DNA of 64,000 bases from Antedon mediterranea. Its lineage: Eukaryota; Echinodermata; Crinoidea; Comatulida; Antedonidae. The translations under genes were made by a program, and so were the position numbers. Where the stretch lies: the NCBI RefSeq assembly GCF_964355755.1, contig NC_092674.1, forward strand, positions 21,416,001 through 21,480,000, given 5' to 3'. Each line of letters opens with the position of its first letter. Within the stretch, counting starts at the first letter, position 1. Positions 6,101 to 42,046 of this stretch are shown one piece after another. A model generated the notes under the pieces. The model saw nothing but the letters and a program-made list of their open reading frames with translations. It had not been told where the DNA came from and made no database searches.

Positions 6101-8707
6101 CTCTATTCTTAATTCTGGCCCCGAAACCTTGACTCAGAAATACCGGGATGGTGTCCGGCAGGGGATAGTTTAACCCTAGTTAAAGCCCCATTCCCTACGT
6201 TTTTTAGATCTAATTTAAGATCACAAACTATATTTAATGTAAAAATAATACTATATGGTCCTATTGCGATAACTTTTTTCGTCTTTAAACGGTTAAAAAT
6301 GTGAAAAATAAATCGATTCTAATAATTATAGCGGCTCGCTATAAATCCCAAAATGCATTGCGCGCGGATTGATATTTTTGTTTTTCACCTGTAATTCGCC
6401 CACTTTTCGAACGATCGTGAAGCCAAAACAAATGGAAGACTCCTAACTTTTCAGCGAAAATACCGGGTTTTCCCCAATTTGTATCAACGGAGTCTGGCAA
6501 AAATAGAAAGACAATTAATGCAGCAACTATACAACGTCAGGCTAGGTATATAGCTAGCGTACGATGTTCGTACGTTATCGATGTTTACCAGCTAGGCCTA
6601 CAAAACTAAGCCTAGCTAGGCTAGGCCTAAGACCGTCCACGAGAGGTCGATCGCCGCGAGCTACTTAGGTAGTGCATTGTTTCTCACTTTTTATCATAAT
6701 TTACCATAAAACGTATATTTAAGACAAGGAATGACATGGTTTAATGTTTTTAAAGTGATATATATGTATTATTTTCCAAAAAACGTCCAAAATTGCAGGG
6801 AAGGGGTCTTTAAGTTAGTGCATGCTTTATTTACTCTTTATTCTTAATTCTGGCCCCGAAACCTTGACTCAGAAATATCGGGATGGTGTCCGGCGGGGGA
6901 TAGTTCATTACCATTAGTTAGGGTCTAATGTAAAGCACCTAGAGGGGTCAGTGATTCATTAGGCGCTATATAAATATTGTTTATTATTATTATTATCCCA
7001 TGGCTTAATTTCTTACAATGGAAACATCTGCATATTTACTTTTTAAGTCGCATATAACCTTCTGTTACAACTGGTCTGCACTCTCCCTTTTGAACAACTT
7101 TTCCTTCTATTGCCACTTTCCCTATAAAAAGAGGTGCATGTTAAATAGAATCATTTCCTTTAAGTTTACAACTTTTAAAATATTGAATAGCATTGTTTGT
7201 CATCGATCAAAGATGTCTTCAGTTTCGTTAAAAAAGGCCTATTGCAAGATTGATACACTTTACATAGGTTCTTATTCCTACTGAAGATGACCAATTTAAG
7301 TCTCATCTAGTAAATGAAATTTGTATTTTATAGGTAGGATTTGCCTAAAATTAGCTAGGCATATTCACAATCAGGATATACTGTGTAAGAGTTTTTGTTG
7401 AAAAACCCTACAAAACACCCTCAAGGGTTTGTCACACCTTTTCCGTTCGGCCAATTGAACGCTCCACATGGCTATGCGCCAATCGATATGCGCATAGCCG
7501 GGTGAACATAAAACATTGACATTCGATTGGATTTGCCAGCGCTGGACCGGAACCGTGCCAGTACAGGTTTAAAAGACTCTTTACTCCGGGATTGTATTGT
7601 AGCAGCTCCTTCTTTAGCATACTCGTCAGTCATCACAACTAACTCACTCAATCTCCCTCAATCCGATCCACTGTATAATTTTGTATTAATTTATTTTTTT
7701 TATTATTACCACTTGAAGTTGCCTCTGAGAAAACATTCAGCATTTGTTGTCCTGTACTGGACAATTGAAAGTTATGGTCAACTGGGGCATCTAAATCCCC
7801 TGGACTTTTCTTCTTCTTGGCAAGATCAGCATCTAATGCAAATGATACTGCAGCTTTACCCATTTTCCTGATAAATAAATGAATATAAATAGTCATCATG
7901 TGAAAACGCACCTGTAGGTACTGTCTGTACTGTAGTGACAGTGTACTTAATACTACTTTGTACTAACTACAAATAAAGTTTCTTTATTACTTTCCAATTC
8001 GAAGTTTTCCAACAATTCCACTTTCTCCTACTTTTTCCCATTGTTCAGATAAATATTTTGGTACCTAAATTATAGTTAAAAAAAAAAATAGTGTTGCAAA
8101 TTACTGTGTTAGTGTTACAATTACTGTACTATTAAACCACGGAGTATGTAATTAATAATTTACTAATTGATACCTCCATGCTACAGGACAGGTACCTGAC
8201 CTAACTAATACTAAATAAATAGGATAGATAGTAGGGAGGCGAGCTCTCTAGATGTATATACTTATTTATAGGCCTAGAGTTCATTTAATTATTAATATTA
8301 ATTAAGAAGAGTTTTCATATCAGAAATGGTATGCGACTGAACAAAACAGAATATCAATAAGGCCTAGGTTAATTAAATACCAGTTTATTCAATTTACAAA
8401 ATAATATACAGTAGCCTACAATAATATTTCCTCTCTTCCTCTACCTATTTTAGGCCTCCTAGGCTAGTATTACGCTCTCCTTCTATTCATCCATGCCACG
8501 GACGGGTGCTGGTCTTCTCTCTTTAGAGTGACGGGGTAGATGGCTAGACGCCTAGCTTAGCTAGCTATGAGATTACTAGTCTACTTACTTAGGAGTCATT
8601 ACTCATACATATGCCTGCACTCTAGTAGTATATGAAACCACACACACCTTTACTAACCAAACCCCTCGTTCGGCTCCACTCAAGTCCAATTCACCCTCAG
8701 AATTCAT
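117..8707 (-). CDS. GTF2F2: General transcription factor IIF subunit 2 (TFIIF beta, RAP30)
   Basis: Seven exons on the minus strand join in frame: 8707-8648, 8064-7991, 7867-7710, 7121-7040, 4559-4472, 3703-3560, 233-117 (723 nt, 240 residues; human protein 249). The product follows human RAP30 end to end: N-terminal MNSEGELDLSGAERGVWLVK, then VPKYLSEQWEKVGESG of the RAP74-binding dimerisation region, ECRPVVTEGYMRLKK, the linker RYKPVSDH, and the C-terminal winged helix (ADKDYVLEKLYQAFEKHQYY, YLKEILKEVAIYN, KYMWELKHEYRHYEK). TFIIF escorts RNA polymerase II to the promoter and acts in the nucleus. The start is the ATG of the first exon, which matches the family N-terminus. All introns are GT-AG except the one after exon 5, which reads frame-correct only with a GC donor at 4471-4470. 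Identity is read directly from conserved blocks. Confidence 0.96.
402..537. repeat. Foldback MITE-like repeat
   Basis: The left end GTGTGGTTCCCACTAG is the inverse of a CTAGTGGGAACCAC end seen at 21966-21975, and the right half (TTGGTCAAATCACTTACG to ACTAG) is an imperfect inverse of the left half. A partial copy lies at 21918-21977 in the second segmental-duplication copy. It is intronic in GTF2F2. The family is not identified. Confidence 0.4.
707..903. repeat. Minisatellite, left part (about 17-bp unit)
   Basis: Degenerate tandem copies of a unit close to GATGGTAGTGTTATTT in the last intron of GTF2F2. The same array resumes at 3287 after an inserted element, so the two arms were one array. 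Confidence 0.8.
904..3286. mobile_element. DNA transposon-like element with TTAA target site, nested
   Basis: The ends are inverted repeats: AAAGGGGGATTCTGGGTTTA at the left, and the right end read inversely gives AAGGGGGGTTCCGGGTTT. TTAA flanks both sides (900-903 and 3287-3290), as expected of piggyBac or Kolobok insertions. It splits a minisatellite. The interior has no transposase that I can see but contains CpG-rich sequence, TAGGCCTA palindromes and a second nested element at 2496-3236. The superfamily is inferred only from TTAA and the terminal bases. Confidence 0.6.
2496..3236. mobile_element. AGTCGCG-ended repeat element, copy 1
   Basis: Starts AGTCGCGTGG and ends GCACGCGACT, a short perfect inverted terminus. 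Inside the left end are tandem GGTC/TGTC tetranucleotides (TCGGTCGGTCTGTCTG), then a conserved non-coding body rich in CpG (TGCGCGCGCACTGCGCG), then a second copy of the GGTC/TGTC block. A 701-bp relative lies at 23822-24522. No coding capacity is seen. Confidence 0.7.
3287..3500. repeat. Minisatellite, right part
   Basis: Continuation of the GATGGYAGTGTTATTT array that begins at 707. Units vary by substitution and by partial loss (GATGACAGTATTTAATGG and similar). Confidence 0.75.
3741..4085 (+). mobile_element. tRNA-derived SINE
   Basis: The head resembles a tRNA with an A-box-like GTGTAGTGGTTA at about 3747-3760 and a B-box GGTTCAATTC at 3792-3801. The tail ends in repeated TTTGAAT (4057-4083), as in LINE-mobilised SINEs; the LINE fragment at 12030 has a comparable tail on the other strand. 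A 39-bp inverted repeat sits in the body (3867-3905). It lies in a GTF2F2 intron. Confidence 0.6.
3867..3905. repeat. Near-perfect 39-bp palindrome
   Basis: Arms CCAGGGAGTTGTAAAATAA and its complement meet with about three unpaired bases at the centre. The flanking TTTATCC is repeated directly on both sides. Confidence 0.85.
4690..6996 (+). mobile_element. LINE (L2/CR1-like) remnant
   Basis: Reverse-transcriptase blocks appear in order but in different frames: NYRPISNLSFISKLLER (about 4830), LLDLTAAFDTINHKILLKRL (5031), GVPQGSVLGPLCF with YADDTQLY (5208-5330), then the thumb-side region (DYEIAKLQLVQNTAARMI, LHWLPV) and a C-terminal tail to about 5990. An in-frame stop near 4982 and frameshifts near 5465 and 5700 show that it is dead, and no endonuclease is visible, so it is 5' truncated. 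The 3' UTR consists of three tandem units starting CCGAAACCT and ends in GCGCTATATAAATATTG plus TTATTA repeats, typical of L2/CR1-type LINEs. It lies antisense in the fourth GTF2F2 intron. A TTAA MITE interrupts the UTR. Confidence 0.88.
6184..6809. mobile_element. TTAA-flanked MITE, copy 1
   Basis: Termini AGCCCCATTCCCTAC and, inverted, AGACCCCTTCCCTGC, flanked by TTAA at 6180-6183 and 6810-6813. The empty site CTAGTTAAGTTAGTGC is visible one tandem unit upstream (about 6073). A second copy is at 11293-11924 in opposite orientation. Both contain a conserved block CCCAAAATGCATTGCGCGCG and no ORF. Piggybac- or Kolobok-type by target site. Confidence 0.8.
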
Positions 8708-8970
8708 TGTTTTTGTACCTCTCTCTACCCCCCTTCTGCTTTGTGTGCGAAGTTAGCGAAAAATGTCTGCGGTTGTGTATGGAACGCCAAAAGGGAAAAA
8801 CATCGAGAAACGAGTACGCATGTACTGTAAACACTGTACCTTTATTTATTTCCAAATATTCTGAGAAAATTAAACAAAACAGATGAGCAAAAGGACAGGG
8901 GCACTGAAGTAAACTCATAACTACTAGGCCTACGAGTTAAGCCTTGATTTACTATCATAAATGTATGTTA
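8708..8970. promoter_or_regulatory. GTF2F2 upstream region
   Basis: Sequence immediately 5' of the GTF2F2 start codon on the minus strand, expected to hold its promoter and 5' UTR. No canonical TATA box is evident. The stretch GGAACGCCAAAAGGG (8780-8795) resembles GGAGCGCCAAAAGAG inside the foldback element at about 9519. Confidence 0.35.
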
Positions 8971-10056
8971 CGGGTGTCACGAAACCTAAGACCACGAAAG
9001 CTCAGACCCCCTAAGACCTAAGACCACGAAAGCTAAGACCCAACACCTAAGATTACAAATACTAAGATATACTACAGCTTAAAAACAATACTTGTTTATC
9101 CATACATAATTTTAAACACAGTGGGTTTCATTTATTACCATAAATATAATTTAATACTACCGCAAAACATAGATAAACTCACATTATTTTTGCCCGTTGA
9201 GTAAATGTATATTTTTTCTTACAACAAACAAACTTGACAGGTTGTTTGTTGGTATATATTTACTCCATTGTGTTGGTTCAGAGGATGTTTTTCTTACGCA
9301 CCTGCCTTTCTTGTATTTTGACTCCAAATTTGTTGACTAACTTTATCCTGAACACCACACTTTAAAATTAGGACTTATAAGTACTTTCAGAAGGAGAAAC
9401 ACATAATAACAAATAAATAAATCCTTTAAATTGATGATTTTACAGATGTGTTTCTTTGTATACTGTAATACTAATGTAACCCCTCGAGCTCCCCATGCTC
9501 AATGTTTTTGTTTCTATGGAGCGCCAAAAGAGCAACAATAATAGTACAAGTATAAAAACAGAAAGAAAACGAAACAAAAAAACTTATCATGATTTTTAAA
9601 TTAAAATTTATTTGCCAGTATTTATTTCTTCGTACTTGCATGATTATACTATTATCATTACAATTTTAATTTTACATTGTTCCATCCACACTGTAGATGG
9701 ACTCCACAGAGTTTTCAGCCCTCTATATAATTTTTGATCTTTTGACGTTCCATAGAAACAAAAACATTGAACATGGCCCATGGGGTAGGCCTACTGTACT
9801 GTAGGCTAGTCATTTTGTGTGCGAGAAAAACGTCTGTAAAATCATCAATTTAAAAATGTATTTGTTACTTTTTATGTGATTCTTTTTCATGAAAGTGCCA
9901 ATTCTAAGGTGTGGTATTCAGAATAAATGTTGGGAGTTAAAATACAAGGCAGGTGCGAAAGATAAATATTTTTAATCTTAGGTGTTGGGTCTTAGCTTTC
10001 GTGATCTTAGGTCTTAGGGGGTCTGAGCTTTCGTGGTCTTAGGTTTCGTGACACCC
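8971..10056. mobile_element. hAT-like foldback element (about 1.09 kb)
   Basis: The terminal inverted repeat is about 85 bp: it begins GGGTGTCACGAAACCTAAG and runs through repeated CTAAGACC motifs; the right end is its inverse. Nearly the whole element is an imperfect palindrome, including the CTCAATGTTTTTGTTTCTAT and ATAGAAACAAAAACATTGA blocks around a central AT-rich loop. The flanks carry TATGTTAC on both sides (about 8964-8971 and 10059-10066), fitting an 8-bp hAT-type duplication. There is no transposase. Confidence 0.7.
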
Positions 10057-13800: not shown

Positions 13801-15202
13801 GTTGAAAATAAACACTTTCTTATCAGTGGGGGGATAGTTCAAATTACACAGTAAAATCTCTATCCTTTTGTACACAAATTTTGTAAAAATAGAGAGGCAT
13901 TTTAAAAGCTATGAAAAATAAACGGTGTGGTAAAAAATGTTATCAGTTGACTAAATATAGGTAAAATAACTTGAATTTTACATTTCTGGTATTTTTATTC
14001 AACTTTCAACATTTTTATTTTCATGCTATAGGAAAAATTATCCACCGTATATCCACCATTTTTTTTCACCTTCTAGGGAGTCACCAGACATGTTATTACA
14101 TTAGGTTAAAATACCTAACTACTGAAAAAAGGTCTTCCTGGTTTTTATAGCAGAATTTTGCCAAATTTTGTATTTGACCATATTAAGGGAAATTCATGTT
14201 TTTTCATTTTGATTTCTGTTACAAATATTTGATTTATGTACAATTAACCAGATATTATATTTAAAATTCATGCCTGTATCTGAGCTTTAAAGGATACTCA
14301 AGAAAACAAAAACCACAAGGTGTCTTGTTTATTTTGTCTAGCCCCATAATGATGCGCTTGATATCACCGCATTTTGAAAAGAGTTCATAGATTTGTTCTT
14401 CGGTTGTGTAGAATGATAAGTTTCCAACATATAATGTGGTACTTTTACTTAGTCGATGTTCTTGGTCATTTAATGTACCCTGTACAGAAAAAAAGTAGGA
14501 CAATATTTATTTTTAAATGAGAAATTCTACGAAGTATAAACATGTATTAATATATGCAAGCCCATGCTTTTAACATGCATTTTGAAACATTTTAGACTAA
14601 ACATGTGCATCATTATTACTGTTTTGTACTAGCTAGACACATCCTGGTACTGTATGTAGTGTAACTATTCTATTGGTCGCTTGACGAATGCACGGAAAAC
14701 AAAGTTTTCGAAGTAAGAAATTGAATATAAAATTACGTTTTTTTAGTAATTTATTTTATAGGGGCCTGGCCCTCGGCTATCAACATTTTCAATATTTATT
14801 AATAATATTAATAATTATAAAATACGGATTGTTAAATCCCTTTCTTTAAAAACTTGATAAATACCAAAAAAAATGAATATGGATTTGGGCTAAAGTGAGA
14901 AGTTTCGGCCCTCAAAGTAGGGTTTTTCCGATTCGTCCCACCAAAAATGGGCCGAATCGTCTCAGGGCCGAATCGTCCCGGATTCTAACTAGGGCTAGGG
15001 CCGAGGCTAGTAGTAGTAGTAGTAGATAGAAGTAGCCTAGCTAGCTAGGGGGCCTACCTAGGCCTAGCCTAGCTTATTTCTCATATTTAAATTGAGTCCA
15101 GTATTGCTAAAAAATCTTAACGATAGTAAGAAGTTATATTACCTTAAAATGTTGATCTCTATATGCACTAAGTTCAGTCATACGATCGGAACGGAGAGAC
15201 AT
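10836..15202 (-). CDS. NCBP2: Nuclear cap-binding protein subunit 2 (CBP20)
   Basis: Four minus-strand exons, 15202-15143, 14479-14298, 13103-12965 and 10931-10836, join in frame (477 nt, 158 residues; human 156). The N-terminus [20 protein letters not shown], the RRM with RNP2 [20 protein letters not shown] and RNP1 CGFCFLEY, and the C-terminal [26 protein letters not shown] match CBP20 closely. The protein binds the m7G cap of nuclear RNA together with NCBP1 and serves splicing, export and pioneer translation; the aromatic cap-stacking tyrosines lie in the conserved N-terminal and RNP blocks. All introns are GT-AG. Intron 3 is about 2 kb and holds a MITE and a LINE fragment. Identity is unambiguous. 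Confidence 0.97.
11293..11924. mobile_element. TTAA-flanked MITE, copy 2
   Basis: Inverted relative of the 6184-6809 element, with ends AGACACCTTCCCTAC and, inverted, AGACACCTTCCCTAT. TTAA flanks both sides (11289-11292, 11925-11928). It is located in NCBP2 intron 3. The shared core contains CGCGCGCAATGCATTTTGGG and an imperfect copy of the same TAGGCCTA-rich middle. Confidence 0.82.
12030..12760 (-). mobile_element. LINE 3'-end fragment with zinc-finger-like RT tail
   Basis: On the minus strand a reading frame around 12184-12500 encodes [16 protein letters not shown], then [20 protein letters not shown], the Cys/His motif found after the reverse transcriptase of many LINEs (C-x2-C-x9-H-x4-C). 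A second piece, in another frame, spans 12558-12746. The element ends in AT-rich sequence with a GAATTTGAATC-type tail. It is non-functional and intronic in NCBP2. Confidence 0.75.
13690..14250. other. NCBP2 intron 2, non-coding
   Basis: AT-rich intronic sequence. A possible degenerate element begins near 13697 (AAAGGCCAGGTGCAGTC), but I find no matching right end. Confidence 0.3.
14553..14600. repeat. Short composite duplicate of LINE flank
   Basis: The segment TATGCAAGCCCATGCTTTTA also occurs at 12003-12022, beside the LINE fragment. Here it is joined directly to ATGCATTTTGAAACATTTTA, which matches sequence inside that fragment (about 12614-12633). This suggests a second, internally deleted insertion. 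Confidence 0.5.
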
Positions 15203-15485: not shown

Positions 15486-18400
15486 TAAACATTCGTAATT
15501 AAATGTGCAAAAATCACGCCGTTAAATGTAAAAACGATCAGTTTTGAGGTAAAATGTGCAAGAGAAATTCTACAAATGTGCAAATCATTTAACTTTCTTT
15601 TAAAAATCAAGAAATCAACATCAAGAAAATGTGTTATTTGGAAATGCGCAAGGAAATCTTTGCTCAATTTTAATAACGTTTAAATTATCTTTTACATTTT
15701 TAATAAAGGTATGCGTAACAGATTAATTTGAGTTGAAATTACATTGCGTTATTTGAAATTGCCACCTAACCCTAAATGTTAATAGTTTTATTAGCGGCTT
15801 TCTACAAGAAAGTTCAAATATAAATTCTGTTTTTGCAAGCTAGCATAGGAAACGCGAGTCTCTTCATTGGGATGGGTTAAGCGTGATGCTGTTAGCCATC
15901 CTTGGTATCATTTTTATTGATACCAATGATGTTGACACCAGTCTACCACGATGAGGTAGCATCTCCGACTTCAGACTGGAAATTTTGTTTTCTTTCCAAA
16001 TTGGCCAGATTAGTGAAATAATATTTGAAAAGAACTGTTAAGCCTACTTTTGCAATTTAAAATGTGATCATTTTAATAATACTGTAGTTTAAAAAAAAGA
16101 ATGTTTCAGTAAGTAAAAGAACAACACCAGAAAAAACAATAAATATTATGCGATTATTAGTAATCCATAATCTAAAAGTATATTCTATCAGCACAGTGGC
16201 CTATTCGCATGTATATACGTATATCAAGAGGTGGTAGGTTTCCTCGTGTACTGTATAAATAAAAGTGTATTTCAGGGTTTGGTTGCCATGGTTTTCAATA
16301 AATTTAAGACCTACACGCGCGTGTATACCACCCTTACACGATACGCCTTTAATACCTAGTGAATTACATGGCTTAATGTCTGCCAATGGATTTAGATCTA
16401 TAGTGAATAAATATCCTTCTTATATTTATGTTCGTTATGTTAAGTTTAAAATTCTTCCGTAGTTCAATTAGCCACTGATATTGCACCTTAACTAAACACG
16501 TAGACTTACTGATTAAACGTATACTTACGCAATGGTACCATCATGTCGAATAGAGCTATGTATGATCGTTGGTATTGATGGTATTACAGCTCTCTCACCT
16601 TTGCTACGCAGTGGCACTTTTCTTTGGCATCTCCGATCAGCGTGTCAAGCATTTCATCAATTGATGGCAGCTCTGGTGTGTCGTCGTGAATGTTAAAACA
16701 CACCCGTTTAGATTGCCTAGAGCTGCTATACAAGAGTGTTGGTATCATGATGGTACTGCAGATTACATTAGACATCTTACGCAGTGGCAACTTTCTCCTG
16801 CAACTCCGATCAGCATCTAGCATTTCATCAACTGATAGTAGCTCTGGTGTGTCGTGAATGTTAAAACACACTCGTTTAGATTGCCTAGTTGAGCTGCTAT
16901 ACAGGAGTGTTGGTATCATGATGGTACTGCAGATTACATTGGACATCTTACGCAGTGGCAACCTTCTCTTGCAAATCCGATCAGCATCAAGCATTTCATC
17001 AACTGATGGTGGTAGCTCTGGTGTGTCATGAGTGCTGAAACATACCCGTTTGGATCTCCTGGTATGGATACTAGAAACTGTTGAATGTCTAAGACGGTTT
17101 TCATTACAGAGCAAATCAATGTTACCAATGTTTATACCTACTTCTTGAGTTTCCGACTTGCAGTGAGGAGATGCATACTTACCAGCCATTCTTTTGGCAT
17201 TCAATTTAGCAATGTCTTTAATACTCTCATCAACGTACGTATGGACTTTCTGTTTGGTTTGGTACCAGCCACATGATGTCTCAGCCAGCTCCAGTACGGT
17301 GAGTTAGTCTTAAAACATTTCCTCGACTTCTGGATGGAGTGGACGGTTCTATCGTAGCGTTTCTTGCAACGCGAAGCTCGAGAGAGCGGCGATAAAGATC
17401 TGTAATAAAAAGTACGATGAACTATATTTGTAATTATTATATCTTTTTTTACATTTAAATTGTTACCATCATAAAGACTCTTAGCTGGCGAACGAGTGGA
17501 TGCACATAAATTGTTATCACTTCCGTCAATGTAGACAAAACTCGGCTTCTCCTCATGGATACCTAAAATAAACAATTTTTTTTAATGACATTTTGGTCGT
17601 ACAACAAGTTAGTTACACATGAGAGACGAGATTAGATTGTAGCTGCCAAACAAAATATCCTAAATTGCCATGATTTAAAAAGAAATAAAAATTTCATTGT
17701 AAGACGCCATCAAAGTTATGACTAATGTACAGTAGTATATTGTACAAGCAATGAAAACAAAATTTATAATATTGTTATACACAAATACAGTTTACATTAT
17801 AAAGACTTTACTGTAACTTACTGTCAGAAAGTTGTGGAAAGTGGTCAATATTGTAAGCTGCGCGGTACATCTTTAATGTTTCTTCAACAACATGACTTAT
17901 AGATTCATTTTTCTACAATAAAAACATTTTTTTTTCTATTTTCCCTGTTTTTTCAATTGTATTTTCTATGTATTACTAAAATAACCTTTAAATAAATTAA
18001 CTAATAAGACATAAAAGCTTTAAGAATTACAATGGAAATAATACTTTTTACAGTATATAACCTTATGTTAAAATAATGTTCCACATTTGGGAAACATTCT
18101 TACTGTTTGTCGACTGTACAATCTTTGTATAAAATTGAATGCATGTTAAAAACCACTCACCTTCAGTTTAGTTGTTGAACTTCTCAGTTCATCATTGGTA
18201 ATGTTGATTTCCCGCCATGGTCGCTTGATTTTGATTGGACCTTTGTGGCTTATGGCTGATGTTAATGGCTTTAAGTTTCGCCATTTTCGCTTCTTTCTGA
18301 GGGCATTATTATAATGTGATTTTCCATTATCCGTTGAAGGAACATCACGGAACTCTCCAGAATCTGTCACATGTCAATATATCAATTTTTTATAAATGTT

Positions 18401-22017: not shown

Positions 22018-25000
22018 ATGGAACCTCTCCTGCAAATCCGATCAGCATCAAACATTACATCACGTCTAGTAGAGTTACCGGTATGTATGATCGTTGGTGT
22101 TATGATGGTACTACAGCTCTCACCTTTGCTACGCAGTGGCACTTTTCTTTGGCAACTCCGATCAGCATCAAGCAATCAATCGATGGTAGCTCTGGTGTGT
22201 CGTGAATGTTAAAACACACTCATTTAGATTGCCTAGTTGAGCTGCTATACAAGAGTGTTGGTCATGATGGTAGGCTACTGCAGATTACATTGGACCTCTT
22301 ACGTCGCAGTGGCAACTTTCTCCTGCAACTCCGATCAGCATCTAGCATTTCATCAACTGATAGTTATAGCTCTGGTGTGTCGTGAATGTTAAAACACACT
22401 CGTTTAGATTGCCTAGTTGAGCTGCTATACAGGAGTGTTGGTATCATGATGGTACTGCAGATTACATTGGACATCTTACGCAGTGGCAACCTTCTCTTGC
22501 AAATCCGATCAGCATCAAGCATTTCATCAACTGATGGTGGTAGCTCTGGTGTGTCATGAGTGCTGAAACATACCCGTTTGGATCTCCTGGTATGTATACT
22601 AGAAACTGTTGAATGTCTAAGACGGTTTTCATTACAGAGCAAATCAATGTTACCAATGTTTATACCTACTTCTTGAGTTTCCGACTTGCAGTGAGGAGAT
22701 GCATACTTACCAGCCATTCTTTTGGCATTCAATTTAGCAATGTCTTTAATACTCTCATCAACGTACGTATGGACTTTCTGTTTGGTTTGGTACCAGCCAC
22801 ATGATGTCTCAGCCAGCAACAGTACGGTGAGTTAGTCTTAAAACATTTCCTCGACTTCCGGATGGAGTGGACGGTTCTATCGTAGCGTTTCTTGCAACGC
22901 GAAGCTCGAGAGAGTGGCGATAAAGATCTGTAATAAAAGTTAAGATGAACTATATTTGTAATTATTATATCTTTTTTTACATTTAAATTGTTACCATCAT
23001 AAAGACTCTTAGCTGGTGAACGAGTGGATGCACATAAATTGGTATCACTTCCGTCGCTGTAGAAAAATCTCGGCTTCTCCTCATGGATACCTAAAATAAA
23101 CAATTTTTTTTAAATGACATTTTGGTCGTACAACAAGTTACTTACACATTAGAGACGAGATTAGATTGTAGCTGCCAAACAAAATATCCTAAATTGCCAT
23201 GATTTAGAAATAAATAAAAATGTCATTGTAAGTTATGACTAATGTACAGTAGTAGATTGTATAAGCAATGAAAACAAAATGTATAAATATTATATATTAT
23301 TACATGTTAGTATAATATTGTTATACACAAATACAGTTTACATTATAAAGACTTTACTGTAACTTACTGTCAGAAAGTTGTGGAAAGTGGTCAATATTGT
23401 AAGCTGTATTAATAAATAACCTTTAAATAAATTAACTAATAAGACATAAAAGCTTTAAGAATTACAATGGAAATAATACTTTTTACAGTATATAACCTTA
23501 TGTTAAAATAATGTTCCACATTTGGAAAACAGTCTTACTGTTTGTCGACTGTACAATCTTTCTATAAAAATAGAATGCATGCTAAAAACCACTCACCTTC
23601 AGTTTAGTTGTTGAACTTCTCAGTTCATTGGTAATGTTGATTTCCCGCCATGGTCGCTTGATTTTGATTGGACCTTTGTGGCTTATGACTGATGTTAATG
23701 GCTTTAAGTTTCGCCATTTTCGCTTCCTTTTGAGGGCATTATTAGAATGTGACTTTCCATCATCCGTTGAAGGAACATCACGGAACTCTCCAGAATCTGT
23801 CACATGTCAATATAAAGTTTTAGTCGCGTGGACGCGACTCTATAGTTCACTATGTCGGTCGATCGGTCGGTCGGTCGGTCTGTCTGTCTGTCGGTCCGGT
23901 ATCACTATGCATTTTATCGCTTTCTGACCTTATCTTGATATCAGTTTAATCTAGCTAAGTCAATTTTTCACAGTATATTCCTTATGGCCAGGAATTGATG
24001 TGGTTATGTTTTCACAGTGCGCAATAAAAAATTACGCGGTCTACGTACGATTTAACGAAATCACGTTTGTAATCATATCTTCACAACCATGAATCCCAAT
24101 TAAATAAAATTTGGTACTCATAAATTTCAGGGCATACATCATCATATGGCAATACAATTACGTGCGTAGCGCATGTAACGCATGCGTACGCGCGCTTAAA
24201 ATCTTCAAAATTTATTTTCGATGAAGAATACGTTTCAGGCAATTATAAGCGTTTACAAAATTGCCGTGAGTGCGCAGATTTTTGCGCGCGCACTGCGCGT
24301 TAAATGTTATTGCGCACTCTTTTTATCCGATTTCTGTTTTCTTGACTTACTTTTCAACTCGAAATTACGTTATACGAGCACGTCAAAAGTGACAGGCTAC
24401 GCACGTGTAAATTAAAAAAATATAAATGTTTTTAAACATTTCAACATTTTTAAACATGTTCAGTAATTTCGGTCAGTTGGTAGGTTGGTCGGTCGGTCGA
24501 TAAACACAATGAGCACGCGACTGCAGCCATTTGTTTATATAAATGTTTAAGACTATAGTTTAAGGTAGGTCAGGCTAATTAAAATTTTAATTTATAGGAA
24601 TCAGACTGAAACCCAAACCTGCATGGATAATCAATGTAAATAAACAATGCTAATGATGTAAATCACAATTTAGAAAATTAATAGGCCTACTAGGCCTAGG
24701 CCTAGACCTAAAGGGCATAGGCCTAGGCCTAAAATAATAATAAATTATACACATTTTGAGCATTGTTGGTATAGGCTAGGCATACGTTATTGTGTACAGT
24801 ATAGCCTATACAACCAATGTAAATTTTGGAGGGCGGGGATATGGGGGGCTGTGGGCGAGGGGTGTATTTGGTGCGGGCGTAAGTTTGAGTGCCAACCCCC
24901 GAAGGGCGTCTACGTATAAACCGATGTTGGAAATCTAAATCAGTGGTGGCTTACAAAAATTTGCAATTTAAGATATATAGCCTATTGTTCACTACCTTTT

Positions 25001-32488: not shown

Positions 32489-35400
32489 TCACTTTTTGAA
32501 ATTGAAATATTTACGATTGAATAGTGTCTTATCCTGAATTTTTTCGAATGCCTCCTTAGCAGCCTGCTGCTCAGCATGCTTTTTTTTTGCTGCTAATTTA
32601 CTTGTGTCAACTTTCAAAGGCACGTTTAGAAACACTATGCAAGAAAATGTCTTTGTCGCGCCATCATTATTGTCTTCAACAACAAACTGAACAGCTTTGT
32701 GCGGAAACACCTCCAGTAACCGTCCCTTTGTGTTTGATTCTGAATAATCTGTAATATCCAATTCAGATAAAACTTCTTTTGCTGCCAGCATCTCTGCTTT
32801 CTTTTTAGTGTTAGAAGTTTCGTTGCTGGTGAACTGAAATCTATAGTTGAATTCTACAACTCCTCTGAAACATTTTGTAGAATTGTGCTTTGTTTCTTCC
32901 ATCTTTGAGTAGTCTGGGATAATACTTGTTTCACCTTGCTTTTGTAAATGTTCTTGTAGTTTGTTCTTGTAAATGGTATCAACCTCCTTTAGGATTGTGA
33001 TTTCTAAATTAAAAGATTAGAAAGCAGAATTATAATCCCCTAAATTTTATCCTCCCCCAACCAAACTACAGTATGTCATGAGAAAAGAGTGAGAACATGA
33101 GTTAATGTCTAGCAAAGGTGGAAAATGTTGAGAATACTGTATTTTTGCGGGAAATGACACGAAATATCGAGAGACTATCATTATCAGGATATTTTTTTAT
33201 CCAAAATATCGGGAGAAATTATATTTTACAGAGAGACCGGGAGATGACATGAAATATCGAGAGTCTCTTGTTGTGCCCAATGATACAAACTTGTGTGGAT
33301 TTCCAACAATTTAACTCAAGATTTCTCATAATTATTTTTTAAATTCTTTATTTCTTTGAATAAAATAAGAAATGGAAAAAAATGGATTGTACCTTGATTT
33401 TCTGGGGCATCTGCTTTTGCTGTCACAGGGTCTGTACTTGATAGAACTGCTTTTAATTCTTTAGGTTTTCCACTAGATGACAATTCTTTGTTACTTTCTG
33501 AACTGAATTTTCCAGGTACTGCTACATTTCTTGTGGTTTCAGAATTGGATGAATCTCTCGGTTTGGACTCTTCCAGTTTTTCATTAGATTGCATTTCTAC
33601 ATTGTCTGGTTTAGTAGTACTAAATTGCACTGGTTCTCCACTTGGTGGTACAGTTGCTCCAGATTTAGTAATGGAATTCTCTAATACTATACCTGCAATC
33701 ATGGAACTTTCTGAACTGAATTTTCCAAGTACTGCTACATTTCTTGTGGTTTTAGAATCCAGTTTTTCATTAGGTTGCATTTCTACATTGTCTGGTTTAG
33801 TAGTACTAAATTGCCCTGGTTCTCCACTTGGTGGTACAGTTGCTCCAGATTTAGTACTGGAATTCTTCAATAATATACCTGCAATCATGGGTTCTGTACA
33901 GACTGCTACAGTTGATGTATGAGCTGAAGAGTATTCATCAGATGTCACAGGTTTTGCAGATATAATACTGGAATTCTCTAATCCCATATTTGCAGGCATG
34001 GATTCAGCAGGAGATTTTATACTGGATGATGGCACAACCAAATCAGATGTCACAGCTTTTTTATCTGATAAAGAAGCTTCTGGCACAGAGCGGGTCGATT
34101 CTATACTTGAAGGGTAATCCTTTTGGATTATTATTTCCTGGATTGCTTTCCATGCAGCATGTTGTTTGGCAGACTTCTTAGAAGTACTAATTTCTCCTTC
34201 AAAAGTATGGGCTCCATTTACAAACTGTATGGTAACAGTAGCAAAGAATCTTTCATTTGCTACCTTTTCATCAGTATAATTCACACTCTTGTAGTAGTTA
34301 CTGTTTTTGTCACAGTATTCTTTGAGACACTGCACAGCGGACTTCCCTGTAAGAAAACACAATACAATATACTGTACATACTAACTTGCTTAATCAAAAT
34401 GAAATGTACAAAACAGCATGCTAGCCAATTAAAATCGGGAAATTGTATTTAAAATTTGTATTTAACAAACATGATACTGGTAGCAGTCATAATTGGATAT
34501 CATTGTGAATTTTCTTTTAATTTATTTGATTATTCAATTTTTTGGCAAAATGAAAATTAGAAATACACAACAATAAAGTAAACAAAATGGCCTTTTTTTT
34601 TACTGTTAAAAGTGAGCTAAATTGAAAAATAATATATAACCAGTATGATTCACTGTACAAGTTAAAAGAATTATATATTATATATATTTGTATATATTTA
34701 TTATAAGTTCTTTATTTTAGATAATTAAATCAATAAAACACTAACTTTACCTTTAAGGAATGTGTCCCTTTCAGAATCATTTGTTTTAGCTGCTGTAGAC
34801 TCTTCTTTTTTAGTGGTTTCTTTTTTGCCTGGTTGGTGAGGCAATGATGTCGAACTAGTATCAGGTAATTCTAAAAAAAGGAAACCAATCAATACTTGGC
34901 ACTCAAAATCACCATTACACAAAAAGATGTTAAAGATCAATTGGGGGCGGGGAAGTATATTTTTCCAACCTCAATACCGTATAGTGAAAAAGGAGCAATT
35001 TGATTAAAATTGATATGCACCAGCACTTTTATAAATCCTAACAGCAGCATACACTTTATCAAGAGTTAATTTCCATGACCTTTCTAACCATTATCATGAT
35101 CATGACTAGTTAATAAAGCAAAAACTTCTTTGCCTTATGTCTCTTCCCATTATTTTAAATGAAATTCAACTTTTCCATTACAGTACAGGCCTGGAAATTA
35201 CTCAAAGTTAAAATTCTAGATTTTCCAATACCCATATGAACCTTGATCTAAATAGCACTTTATGTTCTCCTTTGAAATATGTAACTTACTAAGCCATCCA
35301 AAATGCAGCAATGCTTTCTTAGCTACCTTTTGTTGTGCATCTACTTTTTTCTGAGATGGTTCATCCGTTTCAAATGTTTGTTCATTCACATTCAAAACGC

Positions 35401-38400
35401 AACCATGCCCCCCTAAAAGACAATGATATTTACAAGTAGGAATTTCAACAAAAAAGTTAAATTAATACTTCTCCAAAAATGTTTCAGACAAATATCAAAG
35501 GTACTATATAGATTTTGCACTTCAGGTGCGTAAAGCCGGGTGACAGGACAGGACACACCCATCACCATTGATCATTGATTATGATTGGTCAATTACTTGC
35601 ATTGTGCGCTGTAATAAATTACCATTCCTTACATATACAGTAACATCTAAGTATCTACATGAACATTCTAGAATAAGACACACCTATCATCAAAACGTTT
35701 GATTACGATTGGTCAATTACTTGCTTACTGATATCTTTTTTTTGACAGCCTTTTAATAATATATGTTAGTGCTCTATTGTTTAATTGATAAAAGGGACGC
35801 TAGAAATGCATCATACAGTCTTAAAATGCCACTAACCTTTATGATCATAAACAAATTCTTCATAAACTGGTAGAGGTAATTTATTTTTTATACAATAATC
35901 CTGCAGAAAGTTCTTGTACATTTTTTGCTGACCAGTGTTTCCTAAAAGATTACAAGAAATGATATGCAATATTCCATTATTAATTCATAATAATAAATTT
36001 AACATTTATACTGACATTTTACAAAATTGATAAAAAGCTGATGTAGTCGAATCTACAGTAGGACACAAAGTGTAAACATTTTCATATACCAATCACAAAC
36101 GTCATGTCTTACGCATCTGGAATGAGGCACACACTTTTTGGCTAAAGCTCTCATACCACACACCTCAAGAAGCAAAGTATTTAGAGAGACAGCCCATAAA
36201 CTTGAAAAGAAAAACAGGACAACAGGAGAACCGGAAACTGAACCAAAAACTGGAATGGAGACGTAGAATTTCAGAGTACCAAAAGAGTAAAATATAAAAT
36301 ACAGTATATAAAATATAAATCCAATATAGGATATGATACCCTATATAATACCTTGGCCTTTAGACGATTTCTTTTCAAGATTTTGCAGTCTGCTGTCTAA
36401 TTCACTAACTTGACCTTCGACACCTTGCAGTCGATTCTCAAATATCTCAGTAAGATCATTGTTAAATATATGTTTCAAATCAGGGTTCTGATTGAAAAAC
36501 TCATTAAGGCTTTCCTTCAGGTCTTCTTTATTCTGAATAAATTATAGAGTTTATTATAGCTCTATAAATGTCTTATAAATTATGATTTAATTATGTCATG
36601 GTGACCGCAATTTGGATGTTTCAAAACAGTGAAGTCAGAAAATTAGAAGATGCATTTAATATACAAGATGGCCTGCTGTTTCTGTTTCTATATAGTTCAT
36701 AAAGAACTACAGTTCAATTGGATGTATTTGAATCTGGATTATATTGCGGCAATCTCACCTGAGTGGATAATTGATCTTCTATACTATCAAATTTTTGTTC
36801 CAATGCTTTGAAACGTTGAGAAATAAGATCTATCTCAAGTAGTTCAAATTCACTTGAGGTTGCACTATAAATAAAAAGTAATAGAGTTGACAAATCAACC
36901 ATTATTTTTCGGTTCTTTTACTGGACTGAATGTATGTGTATCTGGTAGTACTGGAACCAGGGAAAGCAGTTTGACATACAGTGATACATGATGGGATGAT
37001 TAAATGCCTGTTTCACACTAGGTTATTATCAATGGTTATCCTATAGAATAAAATATTTACAAATTTCTTTTGGTTTATTAAAGAAAAATGTATGTTCATC
37101 TATTTATCTTAATCGTTAACCTCCTAGTGTGTCGCAGCCTTAAATTTTGGTTTTATATATTTACCCTTTACTGTCAGCTGAATCAACTGCTTCTGAGCAT
37201 ACTTTAAACTCAAACGTATCTAACTGAAAAGTAAATGAAACAATGTTACTTGTATTATTATTATTTATTATTTTACTGTTTTTATATTATGTATTATAGA
37301 TTTTAATATCTCTGAGTTTAGGTACCGTCATTTCCATAGTAGTGTATATAAAGGTGCCAGAAAATTAAAAACTAATATAAAATATTTCACAAATAAATTG
37401 AAGGCAATCTTCATTTGATCAATGATAATAGTTAGTATTTGATACAGTACCTCAGTAACATTCTGCATATTGAGCCGAACTTGTTCGCTGGCGGCATTTG
37501 GTAAATTTACTAATCTATCAAACATTTTCAGAATTGTGTCTAAATACTCCTTCAATTTGTCATGCGATACTTTCATGTCAGTTGAATGCATTATAGAGTT
37601 TCTTACAGAAATGACCTACAGTAATAAATGAAAAACATGAATTTTTTTTCAATATATATATATATATATATACATACACATGTTATACAGTACAGTATAA
37701 AAAAAAACACAGAACAGATGAGTACAATTTAACAAATGTCATAAAACAATAAAAGAAGATTTATAAAATATCCTCCTAAAAATGTCCTCTCTCTTTTCAA
37801 TTTCTTTAGGATATTATATTAAAGATGTATTGTCCCTTTGACTAATTCCAAAAAAATAAAATATAAAAGATTTCGAAAAAAGATGGGTCATTTTGAAGTA
37901 TCATAATAGTTATTAACTATCACCAAAAATTTTTCAAAAAAAAATAAAAATTTAACTGAAATACAGACGTTTTTTTGTTAAAAAAATAACTTTGACTTCC
38001 AGTCAAAGTTTTCAATCAAAACATATCCCATAATGAAACGCGCTTGTTTGGATACTCTGTATGCATAATCATAAAACTTCCTCATGATCTGTGTGAAAAT
38101 ACCTTCTTAACCGTGACGAGTTGTAAACAATCCTAATTTAGCATATGCATAATGCGTACTCATGGTTTGAAATCTTTGTTTACTTTCGCTCGTGACGATT
38201 TTCCAGATGAAATGTAATCAAACTAATTTACCTGTTAATTACGTAAATTTGTTGTTTTTGGCTCAAATTTTCGACTTAAAGTGAATAACTTTAATATTAC
38301 TTTGATATGGCCACTTTAAATTTAGAATATTTTGACCTTCATTTTTTTGTGTTTCAAGGGACAATACATCTTTAAATTATAATATTTTCAATCCCACACC

Positions 38401-41400
38401 TCACCGCCTCCAAAAAGGAAAGAAAATAGAACAGCAATTTGGTTAGGTGATGTTCCTGTAATGATTCAAAATAGTACTCTACAAACACAATTTCTTGTTA
38501 TCTTATGCTTGCCTTTTTTAGCACAGGTAGCCTCGACAAGAGGAATGAATTAATAAGATAAATATTAATTCTGTTTTATAAAAATGTTTGTTAGGTTAGT
38601 AAGTTACAACTCACTAGTATCTATATAACAGTAGTTCTGCAGACCTCCCAACTCGAAAAAATGAAATATTGGGAGTTTTTATGAGCATTTCCAAACTATA
38701 GAGGGTGTTTAAAAAAAATGACATCAAACCATGTGGTTGCTTTAAAAATGGAAAGATATTGGCATCTATAAAAGTAAACATGTTGGATGTCATAGAATAC
38801 TAAAAGCGAGAAAATGCAGAAACTCAATATTTTATTATTATTTTTTTTCTCTTTTGTGGCGCAAACACCACTTTTATTCACATTCATATTATTATCTCAT
38901 ATTACATAAAATCGTATTATTTAACTTGTAAATGTCGTTTGATCGGCCGCCGTAACTTAACATCGCGCGCATTGTGATAAATTTCTGTTTTTATTTTTGG
39001 GGTTAGTGTAACCTTCTCTGTGCATACTAATATACACACAAATATGCCACACAAATAAAATATTGAACCTCTAAAAAAAGGGCACCTTTAAAATTTAGGG
39101 GGGGTCCGGACCCCGTGGACCCCCCCCCCCTTGGATCCGCCCCAGTCATATGAAGCCTAGAGGTAGTAGAAATTTTATTTTTATCCCTAAAGAAATTGAG
39201 TGGAAGATATTTACAAAATATCGGGAGTCTTCACGATTATCGGGAGAGTTGAGAGGTCTACAGTAGTTCTAATACAAGTGGATTCTGTGCAATCTTAAAA
39301 GATTAAAACACTGAAGAATGTGTTTTTTTCATATGTTATATTGTGCTATATAATTTACAATAGACGAAGCCTTTAAAAAAGTTTGTTTGCTGTTAACGGG
39401 AGAAGTTCCCCTGAAATCAAAATTACTAACAATTTAATTTTTTTTATCTTTGTAAAATGTTTTTCTGGGCTGGAAGGGTGCTTGTAAAGAGGGAAAGGGG
39501 ATCCAGAAAACAAACAAGTTTTTTTGGCCTTGTTTATTATGGTACAGTTTAAATATTAACATCTCCAATATAAATTATAAAGTAAAGTAGGATAGAGTGC
39601 ATTTAGAGTGAATAGGGAACCAATCACAATTTATCTTATTATTTGAAGGGTTTAATGTTCCTCAACATTAGCAGGTGTGCACCATTTCTCACCTCTACTT
39701 CAACCATGGGATGGTTTCGGTTGAATATTCTGATCATATACTTTCTGGAAAGTTTTCTACATATTTGATCATTTAAAAATATTAACTAATTGAAATTGAT
39801 TGATTAAATAATGATACAAAGAAAAACACACACTTTTCTAAATGGTTAAAGTTTACAAAAATAGGAGGAAATGGGAATTAGAAAATTCAAAAGGAAGAAA
39901 ATATTATTATGGTATAGTTTAAATATTAACATCTCCAATATAAATTATAAAAGTAGAGTAGAATAGAGTGCATTTAGAGTGAATTGGGAACCAATCACAA
40001 TTTATCTCATTATTTGACTGGTTTAATGTTCCTCAACATTAGCAGGTGTGCACCATTTCTCACCTCTACTTCAACCATGGGATGGTTTCGGTTGAATATT
40101 CTGATCATCTACTTTCTGGAAAGTTTTCTACATATTTGATCATTTAAAAATATTAACTAATTGAAATGTATTGATTAAATAATGATACAAAGAAAAACAC
40201 ACACTTTTCTAAATGGTTAAAGTTTACAAAAATAGGAGGAAATGGGAATTAGAAAATTCAAAAGGAATAAAATATTATTATGGTATAGTTTAAATATTAA
40301 CATCTCCAATATAAATTATAAAAGTAGAGTAGAATAGAGTGCATTTAGAGTGAATTGGGAACCAATCACAATTTATCTCATTATTTGACTGGTTTAATGT
40401 TCCTCAACATTAAGAGGTGTGCACCATTTCTCACCTCTACTTCAACCATGGGATGGTTTCTGTTGAATATTCTGATCATCTACTTTCTGGAAAGTTTTCT
40501 ACATATTTGAACATTTAAAAATAGTAAAATGGGTTAAGTTTACTATACTTTATAATTATCTAAAACAACATTTGTAATAAGAAATAAGTAACACTATTCT
40601 AGTACGTGAAATAACTGTAGTAATAATTTAATTTCTTTACTATAAAACGTATGCTGGGTCAACAAAATTAAACCATTACTGAAGAACCAAATCAATTCAA
40701 CAACAGGAAGCTGAGCTCGCCTTGCCAAGATAGGAACTTATAACAGTTCTTTGATCTTATGTCTGGATGTGACAAATACTATTTGCGGTTACAGTACAGT
40801 ACATTATTCTCCAGTTTCTGTTTAGGGCGTGAAACTGATCGTGTCGCAACCAAACATAAAACATTTGATCTAATTGAGCTCAGCTTCCTGTTGTTAGATT
40901 GCCTACAGTTAGTGTCCACAACTCCTGGAAAATAAACAAAGTGCAGCAAAATATGCTAACTGAAAAATAATTAATCTTGGTGATAACGCAGTGTAACATG
41001 GTGGAACCAAACCCTATCAGTTATTTAACTTGGAACACTACATTCCTGAGGTGGGTCTTCCAAGGAAAGTCAATCAGGATGTGGTACCATTTAATTAGTC
41101 ATCCTTTCTGTCCCCTTAATATAAATATATGTTTTGTAGTTAAGTTAGTTAGTTCGGATATTGATTCTTGAGACTATAACATCAGTCAGAATCACTACAT
41201 TTTCACATCGTTTTATCCTCTAACTTTTGATTGAATAAATATTATATTTTGTACATTGAATAATTTTGTGCCATCGTTATTGTCTTGGCCCTCGACACGA
41301 CTACCGTTACATGGTGGCAGTGGTTTTTCAGAACTCACGAAGAAAAAGAAAATTTATACAGTATAACCAAGCTGTTAGAATTTAGAAGAAACAAAAGAAA

Positions 41401-42046
41401 AGTAACGCAAGTAAAGAGTGAGTAGTGACCACAACTCCTGGAAAATACAAAAAGTGCAGAAAAAATATGCTAATTGAAAAATAATTATTCTTGGTGAAAA
41501 CAACACATTTCCAATAGCAAAAATAGGAGGAAATGGAAATTAGAAAATTCAAAAGGGAGAAAATACATTCAATTAAATCATTAATCTACAGTAACTTACC
41601 TTTTCAATTCGAGTCTTTGCAACATCAGGTTGAAATATTTTACATGTATGCATGAGATTTAAGATAGCGCTTATATCTGGTTCGTAGGCTCCTCCTGGCT
41701 TTTGTCCACGTGGCATGTATGTCTTCGCAACTTCCCACTTGTTTATTGGCCAGTCCTTTGGGTCGACGTTCGACCAATATGTCATTTTTCTATTACTGTG
41801 TTTCTCAAATATATCAGTTTTCCATGCATTGCATATTTTACAATTATCAGGTGGTTCTTTTTTTGGTTTACACGATTTGCATTGTCCAAGATGCATCTTA
41901 TCTGCCTTTAACTGGTCATGAAATTGTGTTATCTTTTGTTCTGAGAATGGTTTTAAACTTTCATTTAATAGATTAAGTGCTTGACCAGATTTTATCCAAT
42001 TCTTGTACTCCGAATTGTTGAGACGTTGCTGTAAACTTGTTGGCAT
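32489..42046 (-). CDS. HEPN (CXorf38-like) domain protein with coiled coil and four dsRNA-binding domains
   Basis: Ten minus-strand exons join without a break to 924 residues: 42046-41600, 37615-37451, 37223-37165, 36864-36759, 36532-36352, 35941-35837, 35412-35290, 34870-34751, 34346-33393, 33003-32489. All introns are GT-AG. Residues 1-204 follow human CXorf38: NNSEYKNWIKSGQALNLL, paired CxxC (C56, C59, C69, C72), WPINKWEVAKTYMPRG, VISVRNSIMHSTDMKVS. R154-N-x3-H159 fits the HEPN R-x4-6-H ribonuclease motif. Residues about 225-318 are a coiled coil. dsRBDs: about 323-393 (YKNFLQDYCIKNKLPLPVYE; QQKVAKKALLHFG), 436-512 (TSKKSAKQHAAWKAIQEI), 756-830 (KKKAEMLAAKEVLSEL) and 843-910 (AAKKKHAEQQAAKEAFEKI). 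A Ser/Thr-rich linker with a two-fold repeat separates dsRBD2 and 3. No signal peptide, so probably cytoplasmic or nuclear. Inference: dsRNA-triggered RNA cleavage or sensing. Confidence 0.88.
33525..33895 (-). repeat. Two-fold coding repeat in the HEPN-dsRBD linker
   Basis: Two tandem copies of about 60-70 codons share SGATVPPSGEP, QFSTTKPDNVEMQ, TTRNVAV and GKFSSES. They differ mainly by a 9-codon insertion (ESKPRDSSN) and by scattered substitutions that keep the frame open. Confidence 0.85.
37006..37140. repeat. Small foldback MITE in a HEPN-dsRBD intron
   Basis: GCCTGTTTCACACTAGGTTA at the left and TAACCTCCTAGTGTGTCGCA at the right are imperfect inverses; the interior is AT-rich. The motif CACACTAGG resembles the CACTAGGACGATAACG end of the 19376 element. 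Confidence 0.5.
37823..38371. mobile_element. TTAA-flanked MITE in HEPN-dsRBD intron 1
   Basis: Ends AGATGTATTGTCCCTTTGA and, inverted, AGATGTATTGTCCCTTGA, flanked by TTAA (37819-37822, 38372-38375). Its interior is unrelated to the 6184/11293 pair. No ORF. Confidence 0.78.
38639..39262. mobile_element. hAT-like non-autonomous element
   Basis: An 8-bp duplication GTAGTTCT flanks the element (38631-38638, 39263-39270), with ends GCAGACCTCCCAACTC and, inverted, GTAGACCTCTCAACTC. Inside is a GC-rich inverted patch (GGGGTCCGGACCCC, about 39103-39116) followed by a C run and TTGGATCCGCCCC. No transposase. Confidence 0.75.
39535..40550. repeat. Triple tandem repeat of about 370 bp
   Basis: Units begin TATTATGGTAYAGTTTAAAT at 39535, 39905 and 40276, with only a few differences between them. 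The third is broken near 40550 and its tail (ATAGGAGGAAATGG...) reappears at 41520-41565, so about 960 bp was inserted into it. It is intronic in the HEPN-dsRBD gene. Confidence 0.9.
40551..41512. mobile_element. Composite insertion with LTR and foldback
   Basis: Interrupts the third 370-bp unit. It holds an inverted pair CAACAGGAAGCTGAGCTC (40701) and GAGCTCAGCTTCCTGTTG (about 40876), an LTR with leader (40992-41427), and a direct duplication of CACAACTCCTGGAAAAT (40918 and 41430) with about 75 bp of following sequence. Confidence 0.55.
40992..41311 (+). mobile_element. Orphan LTR and primer-binding site
   Basis: A 320-bp segment with TGTAAC...GTTACA ends, followed directly by TGGTGGCAGTGG, which resembles the primer-binding-site start of Ty3/gypsy elements. 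About 115 bp of leader follow, and no gag or pol. It is a 5' LTR fragment. Confidence 0.6.

Follow-up and report, generated by a model that had tools for sequence, protein, structure and literature searches.

A CXorf38-type gene carrying four predicted double-stranded RNA-binding domains in the feather star Antedon mediterranea

Background

Anantharaman et al. in 2013 (PMC3710099) placed CXorf38 among the HEPN families and described a zinc ribbon inserted into it. Fusions of the family to DSRBD, NACHT, Ankyrin, CARD and DEATH domains are on record, and members fused to a double-stranded RNA (dsRNA)-binding domain (dsRBD) were reported from vertebrates, cephalochordates and hemichordates (PMC3710099). 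The family was marked as active and RNA-virus defense was proposed as its role (PMC3710099). The taxa in the CXorf38 table are vertebrates, Saccoglossus, Branchiostoma, Ciona and Nematostella, and the word "echinoderm" is confined to the reference list of that paper. A gene of this type was analyzed here in a 64,000-nucleotide window of the genome of the crinoid Antedon mediterranea (contig C5:21416001-21480000). The genome searched was 354 Mb.

The domain of human CXorf38 is Pfam DUF4559 (PMC4554924). By term search, neither HEPN nor RNase occurs in the main texts of two recent studies of human CXorf38 (PMC12196990, PMC9623088). CXORF38 was one of the low-titer open reading frames in a lentiviral library (PMC3520899). 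DUF4559 was found in 45 of 99 clam NLRP proteins (PMC8298618). No test of CXorf38-dsRBD chemistry was found in the open-licence literature; a biochemical study elsewhere is possible.

The earlier note on this DNA had stated that no protein with this architecture was described. That claim is rejected because CXorf38-dsRBD fusions were published in 2013 (PMC3710099). The reasoning of the note agrees with published thinking although its claim of novelty is wrong. The feather star protein adds one more member to a class already described and is no novel kind of protein. It is like the published members in its N-terminal HEPN-type part, cysteine insert, retained R-x4-H motif and dsRBD fusion, and differs in coming from a crinoid echinoderm, a taxon outside the published table (PMC3710099). 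New here are a family member from a crinoid that bears four dsRBDs, the skipping of an exon whereby half of dsRBD1 is lost, and the presence of R-x4-H in 8/8 compared sequences. The number of dsRBDs in the published members lies outside this comparison.

Gene structure and related proteins

Gene structure, domain content and conserved motif residues were computed. The gene is on the minus strand at 42046..32489, and ten exons give 2775 nt, which is 924 codons and a stop. All nine introns are GT-AG and the phases agree across all exon joins. This bears out the ten in-frame exons and 924 residues read previously. The exons are as follows.

Exon 1, 41600..42046, minus strand: residues 1-149; start of the CXorf38 (HEPN) domain, zinc ribbon-like insert C56/C59/C69/C72, WExAKxYMPRGQ motif
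Exon 2, 37451..37615, minus strand: residues 150-204; putative catalytic R154-x4-H159
Exon 3, 37165..37223, minus strand: linker
Exon 4, 36759..36864, minus strand: coiled-coil-like helix 1; spacing I235-I238-F242-L245-F249-I252-L256, read from sequence
Exon 5, 36352..36532, minus strand: coiled-coil-like helix 2; spacing F290-L294-V297-V301-L304-L308-L311, read from sequence
Exon 6, 35837..35941, minus strand: first half of dsRBD1
Exon 7, 35290..35412, minus strand: dsRBD1, second half; 123 nt, skipped in frame in isoform X2
Exon 8, 34751..34870, minus strand: linker between dsRBD1 and dsRBD2
Exon 9, 33393..34346, minus strand: dsRBD2 (residues about 436-508) and a long serine-rich linker of low confidence
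Exon 10, 32489..33003, minus strand: dsRBD3 (about 758-836), dsRBD4 (about 842-909), stop codon

Searches of protein databases (pools of 7993, 2101 and 5010 candidates) yielded four distinct proteins; in the first of these, scoring was limited to the candidates with most words in common, and a protein missing from its results means little. The best match was an already public, uncharacterized Antedon mediterranea protein of 883 amino acids named "isoform X2". It equals the window protein minus residues 355-395 (exon 7), with one residue altered at the new junction. The dsRBD-bearing CXorf38-type gene is confirmed as a real gene. The name "X2" implies at least one further isoform, and because exon 7 is skipped in X2 at least one annotated form has a broken dsRBD1.

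A protein of 859 amino acids from the crinoid Anneissia japonica has the same domain order, with 202/365 identical positions over the first part. Its Pfam calls are DUF4559 and only three dsrm stretches. This protein and isoform X2 lend independent support to the join of the two parts. The other two proteins are annotated "CXorf38 homolog" and come from Siniperca (fish, 308 amino acids) and Ambystoma (axolotl, 327 amino acids). These solo vertebrate proteins share the whole of DUF4559 with Antedon, including its C-terminal helical part, but have no dsRBD match.

Intron 1 holds a 371-bp tandem repeat at 39534-40527 (2.7 copies, 97% matches).

Proposed mechanism

The preferred reading is of a CXorf38-family HEPN protein with four dsRBDs that is loaded by dsRNA, dimerizes and cuts RNA with no 2',5'-oligoadenylate (2-5A) messenger. 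It is judged to be evenly balanced between true and false. The dsRBDs would place the protein onto RNA that is long or structured, where crowding, together with the coiled-coil stretch, would bring HEPN domains into pairs. The paired R-x4-H sites would then cut RNA, and the 2-5A messenger would not be needed. We infer dimer formation, RNA cleavage, dsRNA activation and an antiviral role from the computed features. In PKR and other dsRBD-effector proteins tandem dsRBDs could drive dimerization of the effector on dsRNA. The effector of the Antedon protein would be a predicted RNase and not a kinase.

The CXorf38 part and the R-x4-H motif

Residues 8-314 matched Pfam DUF4559 (PF15112) with 197.7 bits (E 4.3e-58) against a cut-off of 27, which upholds the CXorf38 relationship drawn earlier. 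Over residues 1-190, 49 positions were identical across the window protein, Anneissia, Siniperca and Ambystoma. The paired CxxC (C56-x2-C59 and C69-x2-C72) and R154-x4-H159 were present as described before and identical in all four. The four-cysteine insert is a predicted metal site, probably the zinc ribbon of the CXorf38 family.

R-x4-H also arises in 33% of 20,000 shuffles of the window protein. The motif alone is weak evidence, and the conservation of R-x4-H counts, not its mere presence. Loss of the motif in orthologs was looked for and it was kept in 8/8 sequences, among them all five DUF4559 loci found in the genome.

The N-terminal part is compatible with a HEPN fold, as judged from profiles and predicted structure. 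It matched HEPN_Swt1 (E 5.8e-5, 23.8 bits) and HEPN_RiboL-PSP (E 4.4e-4, 20.6 bits) below the curated cut-offs of 27.5 and 28.4. Foldseek with the predicted N-terminus gave weak matches (best E 0.53). Matches in a second structure comparison were also weak, with HEPN proteins present only among other helical bundles, and neither comparison was taken as proof of the fold. With the N-terminal profile, a match to condensin (E 0.08-0.09) was judged to be chance. A match to Stc1 (E 0.003) in one of the four members was judged to be a resemblance of cysteine modules.

Residues 235-256 and 290-311 have hydrophobic residues at the 3-4 spacing expected for a coiled coil. In a crude count, the heptad value for the stretch as a whole exceeded its overall hydrophobic content only slightly (0.38 compared to 0.30). 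The region belongs to the CXorf38 part since the DUF4559 model extends over it.

Paralogs

DUF4559 gave six matches genome-wide, of which the window gene has two. They fall at five loci; contig 5 carries three of these and contig 10 the other two. The surroundings of the four paralogs (19.5-20 kb each) were examined. A profile made from the crinoid dsRBDs gave nothing significant there and recovered all four domains at the window locus. Of the 10 matches that Pfam dsrm gave genome-wide at E up to 0.001, two belong to the window gene and none lies near a paralog. As only two of the four window dsRBDs were found by that search, single weak dsRBDs may escape it. The window locus was the only one of the five DUF4559 loci at which dsRBDs were detected. 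No other copy of the gene was detected within the window by tblastn with the Antedon, Anneissia, Siniperca and Ambystoma proteins (best E outside the gene 1.9).

Three paralogs have a clearly changed YMPRGQ motif and retain R-x4-H. Observations at individual paralogs were as follows. At C10:12412500-12422499 (4367-10000) a coiled-coil-like frame, NACHT (E 1e-20) and LRR come after the DUF4559 exons on the same strand. This is probably a CXorf38-type NLR, read as a single transcript from order and strand only. At C10:12393000-12402999 (1883-9333) a weak Death match lies downstream on the same strand, below cut-off (E 0.0087); a single transcript would likewise be read from order and strand only. 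At C5:20602000-20611999 (9081-9576, minus strand) two overlapping frames hold the first DUF4559 exon; a short intron or damage to this copy may be the reason.

The likeliest alternative is a non-catalytic dsRNA-binding adaptor, a signaling or scaffolding protein whose HEPN-like domain would do no more than bind RNA or protein partners. It would fit the sub-threshold HEPN profiles and weak fold matches on which HEPN membership is based, and the receptor-like setting of the contig-10 paralog that adjoins NACHT and LRR exons. A role in RNA binding alone has been proposed for some HEPN domains, namely ones without the motif (PMC3710099). Retention of R-x4-H in all eight sequences, including the three paralogs in which YMPRGQ is clearly changed, argues against an adaptor, and a need for both R and H in a pure adaptor is not obvious. 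This alternative is considered plausible but somewhat unlikely.

dsRNA-binding domains

Four dsrm stretches were found in the whole-protein Pfam scan, in agreement with the four dsRBDs read previously. Tested as isolated domains against a cut-off of 23 bits, dsRBD1 (35.4 bits), dsRBD2 (29.6 bits) and dsRBD3 (39.4 bits) passed. Isolated dsRBD4 was below the cut-offs of both dsrm (19.9 bits) and DSRM_2 (21.0 bits, cut-off 27). DSRM_2 on the whole protein gave 29.6 bits, above its cut-off, with the best stretch in dsRBD4, and a helix-strands-helix arrangement was predicted for this domain. dsRBD4 is the least certain of the four.

Fold comparison agreed with dsRBDs, and some of the matched solved dsRBDs were from Dicer, Dicer partners and Staufen. 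The last helix of dsRBDs follows a KKxAK rule. Lysines at the start of this helix are kept in both crinoids in dsRBD2 (KKSAK) and dsRBD3 (KKKAE); dsRNA binding itself is predicted. dsRBD2 also matched Pfam Dicer_dimer (36.1 bits, cut-off 23.7), overlapping its dsRBD match. No ankyrin, kinase-like, KEN, helicase, RNase III, PAZ or Piwi domain was among the 10 Pfam families matched by the window protein at E up to 1. In the dsRBD2-dsRBD3 linker (exon 9) a 43-residue segment is present twice in slightly altered form, at residues 589-631 and 651-693.

The Dicer_dimer score, the Dicer and Staufen structures and the conservation of the gene between Antedon and Anneissia could also indicate a housekeeping protein. 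This would be an RNA-processing or RNA interference-linked dsRBD protein, of Dicer-partner or Staufen-like type, in which HEPN trims or binds cellular structured RNA with no role in defense. The overlap of the Dicer_dimer and dsRBD matches, and the lack of helicase, RNase III, PAZ and Piwi in the Pfam scan, count against it, as do the DUF4559-bearing clam NLRP members (PMC8298618) and the fusion of relatives to NACHT, CARD and DEATH (PMC3710099). A housekeeping role is regarded as decidedly unlikely.

A gene-prediction artefact fusing two adjacent genes (exons 1-5 and 6-10) is suggested by the long first intron (4 kb) and is most improbable, since the nine introns are all canonical and in frame and the exon 5-6 join is contained in the public protein of Antedon as well as in that of Anneissia, which also speaks for one gene in the earlier question of one or two.

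The OAS and RNase L setting

A 2018 survey of four sponges and eight further lower Metazoa, an acorn worm among them, reported OAS without RNase L; echinoderms are unmentioned (PMC6307210). OAS without RNase L in invertebrates leaves the RNase arm of dsRNA defense open outside vertebrates. The related loci in the Antedon genome were as follows.

C11:1247533-1247862: OAS C-terminal domain
C9:7768640-7768972: OAS C-terminal domain
C1:23263024-23263677: KEN nuclease, two neighboring matches

The solved-structure matches of the two OAS loci were all OAS or OAS-like (7/7 and 6/6). Open frames upstream of the KEN matches matched the IRE1 luminal domain. The KEN locus looks like IRE1, taken as a single gene from order and strand. 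RNase L was not detected in the Antedon genome at the sensitivity of these searches. With two OAS loci found and the one detected KEN locus looking like IRE1, a single-chain route from dsRNA to RNase is worth testing.

The Antedon protein resembles RNase L and OAS by analogy only, in RNA sensing that leads to an R-x4-6H nuclease. It differs from RNase L in the absence of ankyrin, kinase and KEN domains from its Pfam matches, and its sensor would share the chain. A broader proposal is that in animals with OAS and no RNase L, to which Antedon belongs as far as the present searches show, the CXorf38-dsRBD protein is a one-chain dsRNA-activated RNase with the function that OAS and RNase L share between them in vertebrates, and that exon 7 splicing tunes the dsRNA response. 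This is tentative and, on balance, unlikely.

The locus offers a conserved full-length candidate for the RNase arm of dsRNA defense outside vertebrates. R154 and H159 are clear sites for point mutants, isoform X2 naturally lacks half a dsRBD, and the paralogs without detected dsRBDs can serve as controls. Human CXorf38 is almost unstudied as a nuclease, and the feather star locus bears on its possible role.

Other features of the window

Two highly similar segments at 16587-17581 and 22367-23109 contain tandem repeats of 171-174 bp as well as long open frames on the minus strand. The open frame at 16587-17303 had no match in the Pfam scan. An RRM match was found at 14264-14506 on the minus strand. 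Retroelement-like open frames matching reverse transcriptase are located at 4962-5462, 56992-58722 and 61878-63980. Exons of an amino acid permease lie on the plus strand at 46281-47806, upstream of the CXorf38-dsRBD gene.
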